From Desulfitobacteriaceae bacterium (GTDB lineage Bacteria; Bacillota; Desulfitobacteriia; Desulfitobacteriales; Desulfitobacteriaceae), in NCBI GenBank assembly GCA_028704155.1, contig JAQVLN010000012.1, forward strand, positions 1-33,378: 33,378 nucleotides of DNA, given 5' to 3'. A program made the translations under genes and the position numbers. Position 1 is the stretch's first letter. Each line of letters starts with the position of its first letter. Under the pieces are notes generated by a model that did no database searches, was not told the origin of the DNA, and saw only the letters and a list, made by a program, of their open reading frames with translations. Positions 2,525 through 33,378 of this stretch are shown piece after piece.

Positions 2525-3468
2525 GGTTTTATAATTCATTATCCATCCCATATTACCTGTGGATTGTCGTCCTGTTAAGATTGAGATTGCCATTTTCTTT
2601 GGTAGAAAGTATGAAGAGCAAGTCTAGAAAAGTGAGGAATCAGGAGAGGAAGTTCAAACAATTCAGAAAGACGGCGCTGATCCCCTAAATAGACCATTTT
2701 TGGGCTTTGACAGATGCCAATAAATCAATTATATTAATAATAAGCTCCAAGGAATTCCTAAGATTTGGAAAACCTGCAGAGCCGGAAACGGAAACGGAAC
2801 ATTACAACTAAACTTAAGACCGGTGAACTTAAGACTCACTATATCGGAAAGGATTCAGAGAAAAGAGTTTAGCGCAAGTTTGGTGACATGGAAGCTATGA
2901 ACATGAGAGTTCAAAGTACTCAAGTGAAGCAATAGCGGAAATGAAGTTAAGAGGCGGTAGGCAATGAGTAAATGAATACTTGGAAGATGAAGGACTTGGG
3001 AAGAGGATTGATAATGGGAAACAGGAGTTGAAGGTAATGTGGGGGATCTGTCGATAAAGGTTCGTTGGAGCTCATTTTATTTTGGCACTATCAATTATCT
3101 CACCTCATTTTTTTGGATTAAGCATCACAAAGCCGGTGAACAGTTAACAGGGATACCGTCGACGAAAGTTGGCGGTTTTCTCTATATCGGCATTAATTGA
3201 GGACAGGAATATGTACAGGTGTGACATACAATGGTAATCGTATAATAAACTCAAATTGGGTTGCATTGCCCGGCTGATCAAAAGATGAGGAGGGCAGGGG
3301 TTGACGGTGCCTAAAGTCATTCAGACTGGGATATCCTTGGCTGAATTCTGTAGGAGGGCAACCGCTGTCCTCTGAACTGAGTATGGTAGAGTATTTACCC
3401 TGGAAACTGTTAAGATATCAATGATAAATACAGGAATATAGTTCTAAGGATCCCGATATTGATGATGA
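2525..3468. other. 944-base stretch without a recognisable gene
   Basis: No ORF of credible length or coding character is visible on either strand. Around 2772-2945 a plus-strand frame reads TTKLKTGELKTHYIGKDSEK and then meets several stops, which looks like the remains of a small gene that I cannot identify. At 3300-3379 another short frame with a GAGG-like site is interrupted after about 22 codons. I see no clear repeat, tRNA or integrase fragment. The stretch is best read as decayed DNA. Confidence 0.5.
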
Positions 3469-3891
3469 CTACCCCTTTCGTTTAGTCATTAGATTACTTA
3501 AGAAGCCTTTGATTCCGCCCTTTTTGGGTTTTTCCCAGGCAGGCTGAACAGGCGGTTGTCCCCCGTATCCTTGATTATACCCTTGAGACGGATAACCTGG
3601 TGCAATAAAACCCTGACTACCTGCCTTTTGCGGTCCGGTCCCCCAGGTTGGATTCGTTCCGGCGGTTCCTGGGGGAAATACAGGTATTCCTGTTCCCGGG
3701 CAGACTCCGGTTATATTTGTAAATTGTCCCATTCGCGGCGGCGGAAAACTGCTTCGGTTTCTAATCATAGGCACAAACCTATGCGGCCTTGAACCTATTC
3801 CCAAATTATAATTTGTTCCGGCAAATTGCCCTTGCACGGCATGTTGTTGGAACATATTTTGGTGAGGTATAAATGGTTGATTCCCAAACAT
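3469..3891 (-). CDS. Pro/Gly/Gln-rich small basic protein, spore-coat-like
   Basis: A 140-residue low-complexity protein. The N-terminal part is rich in Phe, Gln and Asn (MFGNQPFIPHQNMFQQHAVQ), the middle is rich in Pro, Gly and Thr with PGYPSQGYNQGYGG-type units, and the end is a basic GGIKGFLSNLMTKRKG. This layout, a disordered Gln/Pro/Gly region followed by a short basic amphipathic tail, is reminiscent of Bacillus YppG-like and other spore or coat-associated proteins; I see no catalytic fold. The start has TTAGGAG ending 7-8 nt upstream (complement near 3897-3905). It is probably real given this site, but the function is unassigned. Confidence 0.6.
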   Translation of the reverse strand: MFGNQPFIPHQNMFQQHAVQGQFAGTNYNLGIGSRPHRFVPMIRNRSSFPPPRMGQFTNITGVCPGTGIPVFPPGTAGTNPTWGTGPQKAGSQGFIAPGYPSQGYNQGYGGQPPVQPAWEKPKKGGIKGFLSNLMTKRKG

Positions 3892-3974
3892 ACAATTTCT
3901 CCTAACGACATTTTATAATATTAACTATTGTTGGGAACAGGTTGAATTTGATATTTTTTCAAGACAACCTGCTT

Positions 3975-4000
3975 TTCCTTTAATCCAAGGATTAAAGGAA
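3975..4000. terminator. Perfect 12-bp inverted repeat between two small minus-strand genes
   Basis: TCCTTTAATCC (3976-3986) and GGATTAAAGGA (3989-3999), plus one flanking A/T pair, form a perfect stem with a 2-nt spacer. It lies directly after the 24-residue peptide gene. Downstream of the stem the minus strand has AAAGC rather than a T-run, so it may be a processing or attenuation hairpin rather than a strong terminator. Confidence 0.5.
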
Positions 4001-4013
4001 TCAAACTTTTTGC

Positions 4014-4088
4014 TTAAAATACGAGGCCCATAGCAATTAGTATAAGAACAGCGACTACTACGATACCAATGCCAACACAGAATAACAT
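4014..4088 (-). CDS. 24-residue single-span membrane peptide
   Basis: A tiny ORF encoding MLFCVGIGIVVVAVLILIAM followed by GLVF and a stop, almost entirely one hydrophobic helix. The ATG has GGGAGG 7 nt upstream (complement of 4096-4101), an ideal site that no overlapping frame uses as well. Tiny one-helix proteins of this kind, including the YjcZ-like group, are common around sporulation genes in Firmicutes; no sequence-specific relationship can be proved from so few residues. It may be co-transcribed with the Pro/Gly-rich gene downstream. Confidence 0.5.
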   Translation of the reverse strand: MLFCVGIGIVVVAVLILIAMGLVF

Positions 4089-4175
4089 CAGACATCCTCC
4101 CTTTCCAATATATTACATAATATTCGTGGCGGCTTTGCTTGCCACAAAATAGGAATAAAATTAAAGGACAAAAAC

Positions 4176-4206
4176 AAAAAGAGCCGCTATCTCTAGCGAC
4201 TTTTGA
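4176..4206 (-). terminator. Terminator-like hairpin in the intergenic stretch 4089-4555
   Basis: CGCTA-TCTC-TAGCG with a flanking imperfect AAGAG/CTTTT extension. On the minus strand it is followed by CTTTTTGTTTTTG, a good intrinsic terminator, yet no minus-strand gene is visible upstream of it (4207-4555). The rest of this 467-base gap shows no ORF with a good start; TATAAT at 4384-4389 is a possible -10 box for the kinase gene. Confidence 0.4.
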
Positions 4207-4555
4207 AAGATATAGGATACACTTCATAATATGCAGGTAAATCCAGGTATTTTAACAGTTGTTTGGCCAGACAATCAAGGATATAGTAAAAAGTAATGAG
4301 AGGATAACTTTACTGCTTTCAGCAATGGAATTAATTATTTTTATAATAGATAAATTACGACAATTATTTTTATTTAAAAATGGTATAATTTTTAAGGTTT
4401 TGAAGCATTAATTGACAGGGAAACCATGGGAACTGTTTATTTGCAGCTCCGGATTTTAAAAATTATCTCGATGAACAAGTAATGACCTAATGATTATACA
4501 TAGGTTCCGGTAGCTATAGTTACTGAATTCATGAATGAAGGTGGAGCGTTTTTGA

Positions 4556-5965
4556 ATGAATAATCTCAGAAAAACATACAGCGATCTGCTGCAAATGTTT
4601 ATTTACGATAACGAAGAAGAAGCCTTGTACAGAGCTGATCAATTAAGCAAAGAATTCGAGGGAAAGATAGTTGCCGCAGAGGAACTGGTATACCTTCACC
4701 ATGAAGTAATTATGGAAATTGCCAAAGACTTGCCCGCGGAAAAAATTCTGAAAGTCATTAACCGCGGCCTGGTCTTTCTGCTTGGGGTTATAGTAGCATT
4801 TGGCGCTAAAAAACTGGGCGGCAATTACAGCAAGGAGACATTAAACAACTGGATAGAAACGGTTCTTCGTCTTAATTCCTCATTAGAGCTTTGTAAAAAT
4901 AAACACAAGCTTATTCTTGATACTATTCCTGTAGGGATTCTAACGGCTAATAACCAAGGTAAGATAACCTTTATTAATAATGAACTAAAAAAAATGTTCA
5001 ACTTAAATGAAGGAAGTTACATTGGCAAAAATCTAACCCTTATCTGTGAGGACACTAAAGATTCCGGTGAAAGAAGTTTTATTGACTTAATTTCTGAAAC
5101 TATTGAAACCGGGAAGATATTCACCGATGAAGAAAGGGAATATGCCAAAGAAAATATATTTAAAATTACTACTTCCCCTATCCGGGATAATAAAGGAACC
5201 CTTACTGAAGTGATTGCCCTGATTGAAGATATAACTAAGCAAAAACAGCTGGAAAAGGCTGTTATGGAGAATGAAAAACTAGCTACTGTAGGTACCTTGG
5301 CGGCGGGCATTGCTCATGAACTCCGTAACCCTTTAACATCGGTCCGGGGTTTCTTCCAGTTGCTGAAACCGGAATTAATAAAAATCCACAAAGAAGAATA
5401 TCTGGATATAATCCTTGATGAACTTGACCGAATTAACAGTGTTATCACAGATTTCCTTAATTCTACTAAACCTGCTTTTCCCAGAACCCATGAAATAGAT
5501 ACATGTTCACTTTTAGCTGAGATCCAGGTTCTTACCGAAAGCGAAGCACTCCTGCGTGATATTGACTTGAACTTCTATTGCCCGGCAAATATCCCCAGTT
5601 TGCACATTGATAAGGATCAAATCAAACAGGTTTTGCTGAATATAATCAAGAACGCATTTGATGCTGTTGGCTCGCAGGGCAATATAGAAGTTTCTGCTCA
5701 ATGGCAGGCCGGCTCCCCTAAAGTTTTCCTGATAGTTAAGGACAATGGCGTAGGAATGGATCAACAAACACTGGCCAGAATCTTTGACCCATTTTATACT
5801 ACCAAGGAAAACGGTACCGGGTTGGGGATGGCTGTAACATATCAGATTATCCGCAACCACGGCGGAGAGATAAAGGTGAAGAGTATACTCGGAGGAGGAA
5901 CTAGATTTATAATTAGTTTGCCATTCGATAGAAATTTGGATAATAATACTTTCTTTTACAACTAA
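4556..5965 (+). CDS. Orphan soluble PAS sensor histidine kinase with RsbU-like N-terminus
   Basis: A 469-residue kinase without membrane segments. Residues 1 to about 90 resemble the N-terminal domain of RsbU-type phosphatases (EEEALYRADQLSKEF, EELVYLHHEVIMEIAKDLP). A PAS domain follows at about 115-228 (ILDTIPVGILTANNQGKITF), ending in the usual IEDITKQKQLEKAV linker. The phosphoacceptor is H254 in GIAHELRNPLTSVRGFFQLL. The ATPase domain has N box NIIKNAFDAV, G1 DNGVGM, F box FDPFYTTK and G2 GTGLGM. The HELRNPL type is shared by KinA-like sporulation kinases and NtrB. No response regulator is adjacent, so signalling to Spo0F/Spo0A or another distant regulator is possible but unproved. The ATG has GAAGGTGGAG upstream. 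Confidence 0.88.
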   Translation: MNNLRKTYSDLLQMFIYDNEEEALYRADQLSKEFEGKIVAAEELVYLHHEVIMEIAKDLPAEKILKVINRGLVFLLGVIVAFGAKKLGGNYSKETLNNWIETVLRLNSSLELCKNKHKLILDTIPVGILTANNQGKITFINNELKKMFNLNEGSYIGKNLTLICEDTKDSGERSFIDLISETIETGKIFTDEEREYAKENIFKITTSPIRDNKGTLTEVIALIEDITKQKQLEKAVMENEKLATVGTLAAGIAHELRNPLTSVRGFFQLLKPELIKIHKEEYLDIILDELDRINSVITDFLNSTKPAFPRTHEIDTCSLLAEIQVLTESEALLRDIDLNFYCPANIPSLHIDKDQIKQVLLNIIKNAFDAVGSQGNIEVSAQWQAGSPKVFLIVKDNGVGMDQQTLARIFDPFYTTKENGTGLGMAVTYQIIRNHGGEIKVKSILGGGTRFIISLPFDRNLDNNTFFYN

Positions 5966-6076
5966 GGCATAATTGGGCAGGCCTGTTCGTGTTAATACTA
6001 ACGTCTTGAAAACCCTGCAGAAGTCTGTTTTATCTAAAGAATGCAGAAAATAATTGTGGAAAATGTTCAGAGCTTC

Positions 6077-6106
6077 TTGACACAAAATGATCAGGAATGC
6101 TACAAT
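6077..6106 (+). promoter_or_regulatory. Sigma-A-type promoter for the trp operon leader
   Basis: TTGACA (6077-6082), an 18-nt spacer and TACAAT (6101-6106). The predicted start near 6113 is just ahead of the first T-box stem I. It is the best-matching housekeeping promoter in the window. Confidence 0.75.
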
Positions 6107-6113
6107 CTAAATA

Positions 6114-6392
6114 TTATAATATCAATAAATTGATGAGCAAGAGTAGTAGGAATGATTGGATGTATTCAGAGAGCCGTCGGTCGGTGAGAATGCGGTTACA
6201 GGGATTATTCTGAATGGACTTGCGAGAGCAGCCCGAAATCAAATGAGAATAGGCGCTGCCGGGAACCTTGACCGTTATCAGTGAGGTGCGCTTGATGGAG
6301 CGTAAAATGAGTAGGCGATTTATCGTCAATTTGGGTGGTACCGCAGAAGTATAAGCTTTTGTCCCTTGCTGGGGATAAAGGCTTTTATTTAT
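6114..6392 (+). promoter_or_regulatory. T-box riboswitch 1, tRNA-Trp (specifier TGG)
   Basis: A complete T-box leader. The lower stem GCAAG (6137-6141) pairs with CTTGC (6219-6223), and the specifier loop 5' side has the AGTAGTAG bulge. The 3' side reads T-GAA-TGG-A with the Trp codon at 6215-6217. AGAGAG and GGTGAGAA elements of the stem I apical region follow. The conserved T-box GGGTGGTACCGC is at 6333-6344. The terminator pairs AAGCTTTTGTCCC with GGGGATAAAGGCTTTT (6353-6386), ending in a T-run. Uncharged tRNA-Trp would favour the antiterminator and permit transcription onward. Confidence 0.93.
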
Positions 6393-6487
6393 TCTGACTA
6401 CTTAAGTATCATTTGCCGGACTTCATGTATTACGAACCGGACTGTTAATTATATCCTATAGCAAAAATATTGGAAAATTAGCATTTA

Positions 6488-6747
6488 GAACCGATGAGCA
6501 AGAGAAGTAGGTATTGGAAAGTATCCCAGAGAGCTGCTGATGGTGAGATGACAGCATACCGAAAAATACTGAATGGGCTTGTGAGGGCGGCCCGAAATCA
6601 AATGAGAATAGGCGCCGACGGGAACCCTGTCCGTTATCAGGAGGGTACGCTTGATAGAGCGTAAAATAAGCGGGCGATTTATCGTCAATTTGGGTGGTAC
6701 CGCAGAAGTATAAGCTTTTGTCCCTTGCTGGGGATAAAGGCTTTTTT
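6488..6747 (+). promoter_or_regulatory. T-box riboswitch 2, tRNA-Trp (specifier TGG)
   Basis: A second full T-box in tandem, about 100 nt after the first terminator and 56 nt before trpE. Its specifier loop again reads GAA-TGG (codon 6574-6576), with the GAGCAAG/AGAAGTAG 5' side and AGAGAG bulge. The T-box core and terminator (6692-6747) are nearly base-for-base identical to those of the first copy, whereas the apical stem I has diverged. It points to a duplication in which the antiterminator half stays constrained or was copied recently. Two devices in series should tighten repression when Trp-tRNA is charged. Confidence 0.93.
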
Positions 6748-6802
6748 AATGTTTATTTTCAGTTTGAAGTTGGCAATTAATTAGTGAAATGAGGATGAGA
6801 AA

Positions 6803-8265
6803 ATGATCAGACCCGATTGTGACAGTATTCAGGGCCTGGCAAATGAGTACACTATCATACCGGTATGCCGGGAAATTTACGCTGATGTTGTTACTCCGAT
6901 TGCCCTGCTGAGAAGGTTTGCTGACATGAGCAGTCGTTATTATCTCTTGGAGAGTATGGAAGGCGGGGAGAAGTGGGGCCGTTATTCTTTCCTGGGGTAT
7001 GATCCGGTTATGCGGGTGTCCTGTAAAGATAAAGAAGTTGCTATTGAGGAGGACGGCAAGGTCAGAAAGATAGAAACTGACCGGCCCTATGATGTCTTGC
7101 GGGAGATCCAAAAGGCTTATAAATCTCCCAGGATTTCCGGCCTGCCTCCGTTTACCGGGGGATTTGTCGGGTACTTCGCCTACGCCATGATTGGTTATGC
7201 TGAGCCGACATTATCAATTAAACGGGGCAATTTCAACGATTTTGATCTTATGCTCTTCGACAAGGTAATTGCCTATGATCATCTTAAACAGAAAATCTGT
7301 ATTATAGTCAACATGAAAACAGACCATGTCATGGAGAACTACGGCAAGGCGATGGCGGAGTTGGAGGCGATCGCTGGTCTGATCAGTGATAACCGGAGGC
7401 TGTCCCGGCTTAAGTGTGAGAAGAATGTCCATTTCACCTGCAATGTCAGCAAGGAAGAATACTGCAAGATTGTTGAACGTACCAAAGAATATATTCGGGA
7501 CGGTGACATTTTCCAGGCAGTAATCTCGCGGCAGTTTACAGCTCCTTACACAGGCAATCTGCTCAATGCCTACCGGGTTTTGCGGACAACCAATCCTTCA
7601 CCCTACATGGTTTATCTGAATATTGACGGGGATGAGATAATGAGCACATCTCCGGAAACGCTGGTGCGTTTACAAATCGGGCGCCTGACAACCTTTCCGG
7701 TTGCCGGCTCCCGACCGCGGGGAAGAACGGACGAAGAGGACAAGCGCCTGGAAAAAGAGTTGTTGGCTGATGAAAAAGAACTGTCCGAGCATAATATGCT
7801 GGTTGATCTCGGCTGCAATGACCTGGGGAAAATTTCCCGCTTTTCTTCGGTGGAGGTTACTGAATATCTGGCTGTCCACCGCTATTCAACCATAATATGC
7901 ATATCTGTTCCCAGGTTGAAAGCGATATCTTGCCTGAGTGTGACGGCTTAAGCGCCATTGAGGCCGTGCTGCCGGCGGGAACCCTGTCCGGCGCCCCCAA
8001 GATCAGGGCCTGTGAGATTATCAAAAAAATGGAATCTGAACCGCGCGGCATCTACGGCGGGGCCTTGGGATATCTGGATTTCACGGGGAATCTTGATACT
8101 TGTATCGCTATTCGCATGGCGGTGAAAAAGGATAACAAGGTTTATGTGCAGGCCGGCGGCGGGATTGTCGCCGACAGTATCCCGGAAAATGAATATCAAG
8201 AGTCCGACAATAAGGCCAAGGCTGTAATTAAGGCCATCTGTAATGCTGCGGAGGTTGATGATTGA
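6803..8265 (+). pseudogene. trpE: Anthranilate synthase component I, frameshifted
   Basis: TrpE makes anthranilate from chorismate and TrpG-supplied ammonia. The first frame (6803-7951) matches through LAVHRYSTI and then loses the family sequence. The rest, from MHICSQVESDILPECDGLSA through PAGTLSGAPKIRACEII, GIYGGALGYLDFTGNLDTCI and AGGGIVADS, is in another frame from 7897 to 8265. Removing the two bases AT at 7895-7896 (ATAATATG to ATAATG) gives RYSTIMHICS, matching the conserved RYS-x-x-MH-I-x-S, and one 486-residue protein of normal length. So it is a 2-nt duplication or a sequence error. Other conserved parts are present (FQAVISRQF, STSPETLVRL, GSRPRGRT). The ATG has GAGGATGA upstream and follows the second Trp T-box by 56 nt. 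Confidence 0.88.
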
Positions 8266-31004: not shown

Positions 31005-31061
31005 TTGGGTAAAATTTACTTAAGGATATAAAATATATGGAAACATTCGATCATACAATGA
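31005..31061 (+). promoter_or_regulatory. Promoter with overlapping candidate GntR operator (permease gene)
   Basis: TTGGGT (31005), 16 nt, TATAAA (31027-31032), then a 20-base element at 31042-31061 starting AACATTCGATC and ending CATACAATGA. It matches 17 of 20 positions of the element at 33152-33171. Its place at the expected transcription start suggests repressor binding. Confidence 0.6.
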
Positions 31062-31217
31062 TTTAATGGGCATAAAGTTTTAAAAATATGGTGCCAAGAA
31101 AAGTAATTCTGACACAACATGATGTAGAATCAGATAGGTAACACAAAAATCCTATTCTATTTAGAAATAAAAATGATAAATCAGATTTTAATGAATTGGA
31201 AGGAGAAAAGGATCAAT

Positions 31218-32153
31218 ATGCTACTTAGTCAAATATTTAGTCGTATCGCAGTACTTTTTATTGTTGCCCTTATTGGATATATTGCAGCTAAGGTTAAAAT
31301 ACTCGACGAAGTTGCCAGTCAAAGATTTTCAAAATTCGTAATTAATATCAGTGCTCCGCTGCTGATTATTTCTTCTGTCATTGGAAATAGCAGTTTACGC
31401 GGGATCAACGACATACTGCTTGCACTTTTACTGGCATTTGGATACTACATAATTATGTTTTTTGTTGCCATACCCATTACCAAATTAATAAATGTACCAA
31501 GAGAAGAGAGAAACCTTTACCGTTTTATGTTGATATTTCCCAATGTGGGATTTATGGGTTTTCCAATAATAAATTCTATCTATGGTAAAGATGCAATATT
31601 TTACGTCTCAATTTATAATCTTCCCAGCATAATTTTTTTGTTTTCCTTAGGAATATATTTAGTCAGGAACCAAAAGGATCAGATGGATTTTAACATAAAA
31701 CAGCTTATTAATCCTTCCATAATTGCCTTTTTCATAGCTATTTTGATTTTTATTCTTAAAATTCAATTACCTCAAATGATAAATGATACAATCAATATGC
31801 TTGGAGATATTACGATTCCTTTATCCTTGTTGGTAATTGGCTCATCTTTATCAACAGTCTCAATCAAAGAATTACTACTTGAAAAAAGGTTATATCTTAT
31901 TACAGTCATAGGAAATATTATAATTCCAGTAACTATATTACTGCTTTTGAGGTTAATAATTATCAACAAAGTAATCATTGGAGTAACTGTTCTTTTGGTC
32001 GGAATGCCGGTTGCTTCACTAATGGTCATGTTTTGTCATGCTTATGAAGGAAATGTTGAATTAGCTGCCAAAGCAGTCATGTTCACCACCTTATTCTCAA
32101 TTGTATCCATTCCATTTCTAGCTTATCTGTTATCGAGATTTGCCCTCTTATAA
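31218..32153 (+). CDS. AEC-family permease (auxin efflux carrier/malate permease-like)
   Basis: A 311-residue transporter with about ten hydrophobic helices in two halves. Landmarks are the opening FIVALIGYIAAKVKILDE, FPNVGFMGFPIINSIYGKDA in the first half and VGMPVASLMVMFCHAYEGNV with NVELAAKAVMFTTLFSIVSI in the second half, all typical of the AEC family. Members carry malate, lactate or malonate. ATG 31218 is preferred because AAGGA lies 5 nt upstream; the frame extends to 31173. The GntR regulator follows 188 nt downstream and the same operator-like palindrome appears before this gene. Confidence 0.82.
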   Translation: MLLSQIFSRIAVLFIVALIGYIAAKVKILDEVASQRFSKFVINISAPLLIISSVIGNSSLRGINDILLALLLAFGYYIIMFFVAIPITKLINVPREERNLYRFMLIFPNVGFMGFPIINSIYGKDAIFYVSIYNLPSIIFLFSLGIYLVRNQKDQMDFNIKQLINPSIIAFFIAILIFILKIQLPQMINDTINMLGDITIPLSLLVIGSSLSTVSIKELLLEKRLYLITVIGNIIIPVTILLLLRLIIINKVIIGVTVLLVGMPVASLMVMFCHAYEGNVELAAKAVMFTTLFSIVSIPFLAYLLSRFALL

Positions 32154-32341
32154 AAAAAATTTATGGGCTAAACTTTTAAGTAAAAATATACAATTGCTTA
32201 ATCTTACCTTGATAACTTATAAATGCGAAAATCATATATTTTAAACTTTCTTCTTACATTCTTAACTAAATTGGACATCGTAAAAAATGTAGCAGCCTTT
32301 AGTGACACCTTTTAAAGATGAATAACTTGAAGGGAGAAAAA

Positions 32342-33040
32342 ATGGCTATCCAGAAATTTCAGATGCATGAACTTGTTTATGAAAAGTTAAAAGAAATAAT
32401 CTTATCCGGAAGATTTAAAGAAGGGGATTACCTACCGTCACAGCTGGAATTGGCCCAAGAACTTGGAATCAGCAGATCTGCCCTGAGAGGAGCAATTTTA
32501 TTATTACGGAAAATGGGTGTTGTGGAGGTAACACCTGGTATAGGGACAATTATCAGGAGTGTTACATTTCCCGCCAATAGTAGATCGGTATTACAGGATA
32601 CACATGACTATAAGGATCAGATACTGGAATTACTGGAATTCAGAATAAGTATTGAAATTGAGGCAGCCGGTTTAGCAGCAGAAAGAGCCACTAATGAACA
32701 GATAATTAAGTTAAGGGAAGCTTATGAATACCTCGTAACTGTTACCAGAAATGGTTATAAAGGTACAGAAGCTGACCTTAATTTTCATCTTGTTCTGGTA
32801 GAGATTAGCGGAAACAAATTATTCTATAAAATAATGTTATCAATTATAGATTTATTTAGGGATATTATCGATAAAGTTAGACAGGATACACGTAACAAGT
32901 CGGGAGAAAAAGCCATTGAAGAACTAGAGCGTCATAAAAAGATTCTAAATGCTATTGAAGGCAGGGATAAGATAAAGGCACGAAAAATAAAAGCTGAGAA
33001 TTTGGAATATGTATATAATACAGTACGATCTTGGCTGTAA
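32342..33040 (+). CDS. FadR-subfamily GntR transcriptional regulator
   Basis: A 232-residue regulator. N-terminal winged helix (MHELVYEKLKEIILSGRFKE, GDYLPSQLELAQELGISRSA, VTPGIGTIIR) and an all-helical FCD ligand domain with the metal-site residues of the family (D near LEFRISIEIE/EADLNFHLVLVEISGN, H in ELERHKKILNAI). FadR-type members respond to organic acids. ATG 32342 has AAGGGAG 5 nt upstream; the longer frame from 32318 is unlikely. It is most likely the controller of the neighbouring permease and the gene at the right edge. Confidence 0.9.
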   Translation: MAIQKFQMHELVYEKLKEIILSGRFKEGDYLPSQLELAQELGISRSALRGAILLLRKMGVVEVTPGIGTIIRSVTFPANSRSVLQDTHDYKDQILELLEFRISIEIEAAGLAAERATNEQIIKLREAYEYLVTVTRNGYKGTEADLNFHLVLVEISGNKLFYKIMLSIIDLFRDIIDKVRQDTRNKSGEKAIEELERHKKILNAIEGRDKIKARKIKAENLEYVYNTVRSWL

Positions 33041-33061
33041 AATTAAAACATTTTATTTATC

Positions 33062-33100
33062 AAATAGTCCGAACCTTTTTTAAGGACGGACTATTTTTAA
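33062..33100 (+). terminator. Terminator after the GntR gene
   Basis: AAATAGTCCG (33062-33071) pairs with CGGACTATTT (33087-33096), followed by TTTAATTT. Confidence 0.85.
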
Positions 33101-33123
33101 TTTAAAATATTCAAAAATTATAA

Positions 33124-33172
33124 TTGAAAAAAAAGAAAAGAATAATATAATAACATTGGAACATACAATGTT
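33124..33172 (+). promoter_or_regulatory. Promoter with palindromic candidate GntR operator (right-edge gene)
   Basis: TTGAAA (33124), 16-nt spacer, TATAAT (33146-33151), immediately followed by AACATTG-7 nt-CAATGTT (33152-33172), a perfect 7-bp inverted repeat. The arrangement is the same as upstream of the permease gene. Confidence 0.65.
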
Positions 33173-33269
33173 TAGACAATCAAAATATCTAACGTTGAAA
33201 AATAATTAAAAGGAGGGAACTTTTATTGTTCGTGAAAATTTTAAAATTTTAAAGGAGGCACGACAGAAC

Positions 33270-33378
33270 ATGGTTATATCTTATGCGAATTCCGATAAAA
33301 CCGAAACAACCAAGGCCCTTAGTATTGGTAACCTTACCCCGATTGAAAAAGAAAATCTGGCCAGGTGTATCGCCAAGC
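33270..33378 (+). CDS. Unidentified protein, N-terminus only (runs off right edge)
   Basis: AAAGGAGG is followed by an ATG at 33270 and an open frame (MVISYANSDKTETTKALSIG, NLTPIEKENLARCIAK) to the end of the window. The 36 residues do not let me name a family. A second, tiny TTG ORF with an AGGAGG site lies just before it (33226-33252, eight codons). The gene is under the operator-like promoter and is the likely catabolic or effector gene of the GntR module. Confidence 0.55.
   Translation, partial: MVISYANSDKTETTKALSIGNLTPIEKENLARCIAK

Follow-up and report, generated by a model that had tools for sequence, protein, structure and literature searches.

Organisation of the locus

The window, by which we mean the whole 33,378-nucleotide stretch of DNA that was analysed, is one entire contig (C83) of the assembly, and the features considered here lie towards its right-hand edge (Table 1). 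The AEC permease named in the initial annotation is confirmed by its Pfam match (135.6 bits against a cut-off of 25.7, residues 6-301), with the domain covering the whole length of the protein; a match to the auxin efflux carrier family TIGR00946 fell below the cut-off. The regulator gene said to lie between two similar elements, here O1 and O2, is also present, and its product carries an N-terminal GntR wHTH domain (PF00392, E = 1.4e-15, 57.1 bits against a cut-off of 27) and a C-terminal FCD domain (PF07729, E = 1.8e-21, 77.3 bits against a cut-off of 24.3), an alternative start being possible at the ATG at 32342.

Table 1. Coordinates of the genes and signals at the regulator locus (window positions).
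Feature	Position	Strand	Details
Weak promoter-like sequence, permease(-regulator) unit	31005-31032	+	TTGGGT-N16-TATAAA, read from sequence
Candidate operator O1	31042-31062	+	AACATTCGATCATACAATGAT; 7 of 10 dyad pairs
AEC-type permease, 311 aa	31218-32153	+	Mem_trans, PF03547 E = 2.1e-39
FadR-subfamily GntR regulator, wHTH + FCD, 240 aa	32318-33040	+	Pfam
Intrinsic terminator after regulator gene	33062-33097	+	10-bp stem, further inner stem, U tract
Right-edge gene promoter	33124-33151	+	TTGAAA-N16-TATAAT, 11 of 12 consensus bases
Candidate operator O2	33152-33172	+	AACATTGGAACATACAATGTT; perfect 7-bp inverted repeat
5' end, probable glycyl radical enzyme gene	33270-33378	+	AAAGGAGG, then ATG 33270; ends at contig edge

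The terminator scan found no terminator between the permease and regulator genes, which are probably one transcription unit, and O1 would for that reason govern the regulator as well, which probably also controls itself through this element. Behind the regulator gene lies an intrinsic terminator (-16 kcal/mol, z = -5.8, 0 of 200 shuffles), and since it separates the regulator from the right-edge gene, O2 serves a separate promoter. Both elements had been described as lying right after a -10 box, which holds exactly for O2, beginning at 33152 where the -10 ends at 33151, but only loosely for O1, which begins nine bases past the TATAAA at 31027-31032 of a promoter with a poor -35 that was absent from the promoter scanner output. 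As O2 starts at the base following the -10, a dimer bound there would cover the transcription start, the usual position for a repressor. Between O2 and the right-edge gene there is a possible leader open-reading frame of eight codons (33226-33252), with a TTG start behind AAGGAGGG and a stop that overlaps the gene's ribosome-binding site, so placed that translational coupling with that gene is possible; nothing similar was seen on C94, the contig carrying a related cassette described below.

Operator-like elements around the regulator gene

Reading the sequence bears out the positions given for O1 and O2 and their agreement at 17 of 20 positions, and the perfect 7-bp inverted repeat claimed for one of them belongs to O2 (AACATTG-N7-CAATGTT). 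About the same centre, symmetric pairs number 7 of 10 in O1 and 8 of 10 in O2. The common core proposed in the initial annotation, AACATT..CATACAATG, is indeed shared, but its spacer is four nucleotides and not two (AACATT-N4-CATACAATG), and the literal pattern with a two-nucleotide gap has no exact copy in the whole window.

Simple identity is a poor test of such a pair because the intergenic regions holding O1 and O2 are about 77% A+T. When both intergenic regions were Markov-shuffled, 430 of 3000 shuffles (14%) reached an identity of at least 17 of 20, and a 7-bp inverted repeat was present in 51% of shuffles; the 17/20 identity by itself is weak evidence and is not significant here. Weighting the O1-O2 similarity by base composition gave p = 0.0028 against shuffles, and when similarity was combined with dyad symmetry around one shared centre, the observed value was matched in none of 1500 shuffles, for a statistic picked after the sites had been seen.

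The initial annotation had suggested a search for further copies in the genome and had held random-frequency occurrence to count against a shared operator. Across the 2.26-Mb assembly the core, a search pattern itself derived from O1 and O2, occurs in exactly two copies at zero mismatches, both at this locus, with no copy at one mismatch and eight places at two (loci L003-L010). At up to three mismatches there were 99 matches, against 86 for a reversed control pattern, and there is little or no excess of the motif beyond the two exact copies. Matrix scores separate the real pair (23.7 and 24.4) from the best sites in the loci around the two-mismatch places, which scored 17.7, within a 543-aa open-reading frame, and 17.6, in a 38-bp gap upstream of a thiamine-phosphate-synthase-like gene. 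The assembled genome is without a further strong site, and the random-frequency occurrence that would have counted against a shared operator was therefore not seen, for a pattern drawn from the two sites themselves.

The regulator and its paralogues

The regulator fell below all the NCBIfam cut-offs compared, scoring 111 bits against 311 for LldR (the best), 99 against 260 for NanR, 85 against 301 for GlcC and 73 against 330 for PdhR, and its nearest solved structure is NanR (6on4, E = 1.1e-16). Two more paralogues are present in the genome, one 63% identical on contig C178 and a broken one on C94 that is split into two frames, with near-identical recognition helices in all three. No good copy of the O1/O2 element was found at either of these paralogue loci. 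With positions assigned by matching conserved motifs to FadR, the equivalent of FadR Arg35 is Leu43 in the regulator and L, P and V across the three paralogues. Arg occupies this position in 48 of 53 sampled relatives, as a frequent and not an absolute trait, and the Arg45 and Arg49 equivalents are retained in all three paralogues. Within the FCD domain, D153, H157 and H206 are kept and the third His is replaced by N228, these being the residues which we take to be the metal ligands; Asn stands at the last position in all three paralogues and His in 49 of the 49 relatives aligned there. Judged on these residues, the regulator and its paralogues form a small group that diverges from its relatives at DNA-contact and metal-site positions.

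The operator consensus of the FadR subfamily is TKGT-N3-ACMA, a common and not an obligatory feature, with NanR and BioR as published exceptions inside the subfamily (PMC4494728). The bottom strand of O1 and O2 reads TTGT-ATG-WTCS, with one full half and the other degenerate, and so departs from it; the AACATTG/CAATGTT register offers a second reading of the dyad. By a published correlation, an Arg at the Arg35 position favours G/C as the K of TKGT and disfavours A/T (PMC4494728), the roles of Arg35, Arg45 and Arg49 being tabulated in that study and discussed in PMC7797058. The half that O1 and O2 strictly conserve is the bottom-strand TTGT, in which K is T, the direction expected if Arg35 had been lost; this is an argument of consistency and not a proof, and the altered residues of the regulator would fit a non-standard operator. 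The prediction that follows is that repressors lacking Arg35 should tolerate A/T where the family normally needs G, and the rule could aid operator prediction for other FadR-subfamily regulators without that arginine.

The right-edge gene and a related cassette

Before the contig ends, 36 residues of the right-edge gene product can be read (MVISYANSDKTETTKALSIGNLTPIEKENLARCIAK), and these match no Pfam family. Their sole other match in the genome is the N-terminus of a PFL-like open-reading frame on C94 (58% over 24 aa, E = 0.0015 per genome), with an alignment score of 70 where 20000 shuffles gave at most 54, and the two peptides share the motif IGxxxPIEKENLxRCI. The similarity lies ahead of the PFL domain proper, whose start is near residue 60, within an N-terminal extension. 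The family of this gene had been given as unknown, a statement that can now be improved upon: because of the sequence similarity and of a parallel position after a paralogous regulator, we name it as very likely a glycyl radical enzyme (GRE) gene. Its continuation was not found on another contig of the assembly, and the C-terminal Gly_radical domain (PF01228) has no match in the assembly, the rest of both genes being missing or truncated.

The C94 open-reading frame matches PF02901 (E = 4e-57), and among solved structures it is nearest to the glycerol dehydratase GdhB (1r8w, E = 1.6e-39) and choline lyase. It reaches no cut-off for a functional subtype of GRE, its truncation depressing the scores, and shares at most about 41% identity with anything found; its N-terminal extension of about 58 residues is without a match in any GRE found. 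The enzyme gene lies directly downstream of the broken regulator paralogue, from which a strong hairpin terminator divides it. It breaks off at about residue 318, giving way to an SDR fragment; further downstream are SDR genes and a GRE activase gene (C94, 6144-7064; TIGR02494, 340 bits against a cut-off of 174), whereas C83 stops before a linked activase copy could come into view.

The region of C94 from 2906 to 7064 (locus L062) has the appearance of a decayed copy of the cassette, in which the SDR fragment lacks its own middle and is followed by an intact-looking SDR gene and the activase gene. Upstream of the enzyme gene, at 3845-3885 of L062, is a perfect palindrome with arms of 16-17 bp and a 3-nt loop (TTGGTGAAATATTCAA-ATG-TTGAATATTTCACCAA), which overlaps a promoter-like sequence and may be the operator of that copy. 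The DNA upstream of the cassette includes a stretch similar to a group II intron maturase (GIIM; 275-523, weak and below the cut-off) and a gene for an HTH protein similar to an IS21-type transposase (1819-2286). A repeat at about 751-880 is found again at the start of contig C178; both the duplication of the cassette and the contig breaks may be due to mobile elements. Contigs C178 (L061, 1962-2582) and C174 (L063, 3486-4115) carry near-identical membrane-protein genes of about 206 aa (about 97% aa identity), next to the regulator paralogue on C178 and to two SDR genes on C174; naming this protein an acetate transporter was considered and dropped, with no Pfam match. L061 also has repeats a few hundred bases long (3020-3970), with recurrent GC-rich units resembling GGGGCTACAAGG...CGCAACCCC and including a run of N.

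Searches for the locus elsewhere

No orthologous locus was found in 46 genomes of the family (searched with the regulator), 83 of the class (searched with the enzyme) or about 400 of the phylum (searched with both), nor in the classes to which the two genomes with the best matches belong or in one scan of named genomes. Among the genomes searched, no regulator homologue outside this genome exceeded about 38% identity, and no enzyme outside it carried the N-terminal extension. Plasmid records held remote FadR/GntR and GRE matches only, viral contigs gave no match, and a literature search returned no paper evidently on the pairing of regulator, permease and GRE. With no orthologous locus found for phylogenetic footprinting, the candidate operators are without phylogenetic support, a point against reading them as operators.

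Regulatory model and alternatives

The initial proposal of one operator shared by the permease and the right-edge gene stands as the best-supported reading, given the paired dyads, a motif confined to this locus and a GntR and FCD gene between its two copies. We consider it likely that O1 and O2 are operators of the encoded FadR-subfamily repressor, controlling the AEC permease and the probable GRE gene. With its effector absent, the dimer would sit on O2, over the transcription start of the right-edge gene, and on O1, a short way 3' of the promoter for the permease, blocking both promoters. The permease would import a small organic compound, or a related organic anion, for which the GRE would carry out the radical step of anaerobic breakdown; the imported compound or a pathway intermediate would then bind the FCD domain and release the repressor, inducing the permease and the glycyl-radical pathway together. 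The repressor would limit its own production as part of the permease-regulator unit, and the enzyme would be driven by its own strong promoter behind the terminator. The signal may be an organic acid, as the initial annotation had it; the FCD domain suggests this, as do the nearest named families, LldR, NanR, GlcC and PdhR, though by its scores the regulator belongs to none of them. Against the model, the paralogue loci are without the element despite near-identical recognition helices, unless their sites have changed or decayed; the O1 promoter is weak, with O1 set back from its -10; and the element is not of the standard TKGT-N3-ACMA form.

The departure from the subfamily consensus (PMC4494728) would also suit another owner of the sites, either the 63% identical C178 paralogue, with its near-identical recognition helix, or an unlinked factor; in that case the GntR protein encoded here would bind elsewhere or cross-bind. 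We regard this as unlikely, as the motif is confined to the surroundings of this regulator gene and is missing near its paralogues, and a global factor would have more sites. The pair could instead be partly coincidental, with O2 a real operator or else a structural palindrome belonging to the right-edge promoter, and with O1 a chance look-alike; the frequency of 17/20 identity among shuffles, the weak O1 promoter and the imperfect left arm of O1 all point that way, but the composition-weighted similarity, the 7 of 10 dyad pairs of O1 about the same centre and the joint result (p < 1/1500) make it improbable. Very improbable is that the repeats act as RNA hairpins in 5' leaders and not as DNA operators: the O2 transcript could form a 7-bp hairpin (-5.3 kcal/mol), but with the -10 ending at 33151 transcription should begin inside O2, leaving the left arm at most partly transcribed, and what O1 and O2 have in common is sequence more than base pairing.

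The identity of the right-edge gene can be doubted separately, its short motif being perhaps shared with the C94 enzyme by chance or as an accessory domain. The few readable residues, their want of a Pfam match and the position of the similarity outside the PFL domain proper favour this; the genome-wide E-value with a single other match, the gap between the observed and shuffled scores and the same placement after a paralogous regulator leave it little probability. Returning to the reading of a repressor shared by permease and GRE, a broader and more doubtful extension of it is that the extended enzymes are an undescribed GRE class and the regulators a new subgroup of FCD repressors, on a cassette duplicated and partly decayed within one genome, in which the loss of Arg35 might have accompanied a changed operator and a changed metal or effector site. 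If the preferred reading holds, a previously unnamed gene at a contig edge becomes part of a testable glycyl-radical pathway with a probable permease and switch.

Comparison with known systems

The circuit would be of a common type, an ordinary local catabolic switch, and what would be unusual are the regulator subgroup and the extended GRE. LldR, PdhR and GlcC share with the regulator described here the wHTH and FCD architecture, the Arg45 and Arg49 equivalents and the FCD Asp and two His, and each has a local regulon with an operator adjoining the promoter of a transport or catabolic gene, as predicted at this locus. It differs from them in having Leu for Arg35 and Asn for the third metal-ligand His, in an operator that is not TKGT-N3-ACMA and in scores far under the equivalog cut-offs. 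The sialic acid repressor NanR likewise has an FCD domain, and its operator is located downstream of the site for RNA polymerase, the arrangement predicted here, but it recognises direct repeats of GGTATA and retains an equivalent of Arg35 as its Arg59 (PMC8012715), whereas the site at our locus is a dyad and the arginine has been lost. On the enzyme side, the C94 homologue resembles the GREs of the PFL2, glycerol dehydratase and choline lyase group in its PF02901 match, in its alignment with GdhB and choline lyase and in having an activase gene close by, and is set apart from the GREs found by its N-terminal extension and its low identity to anything found.
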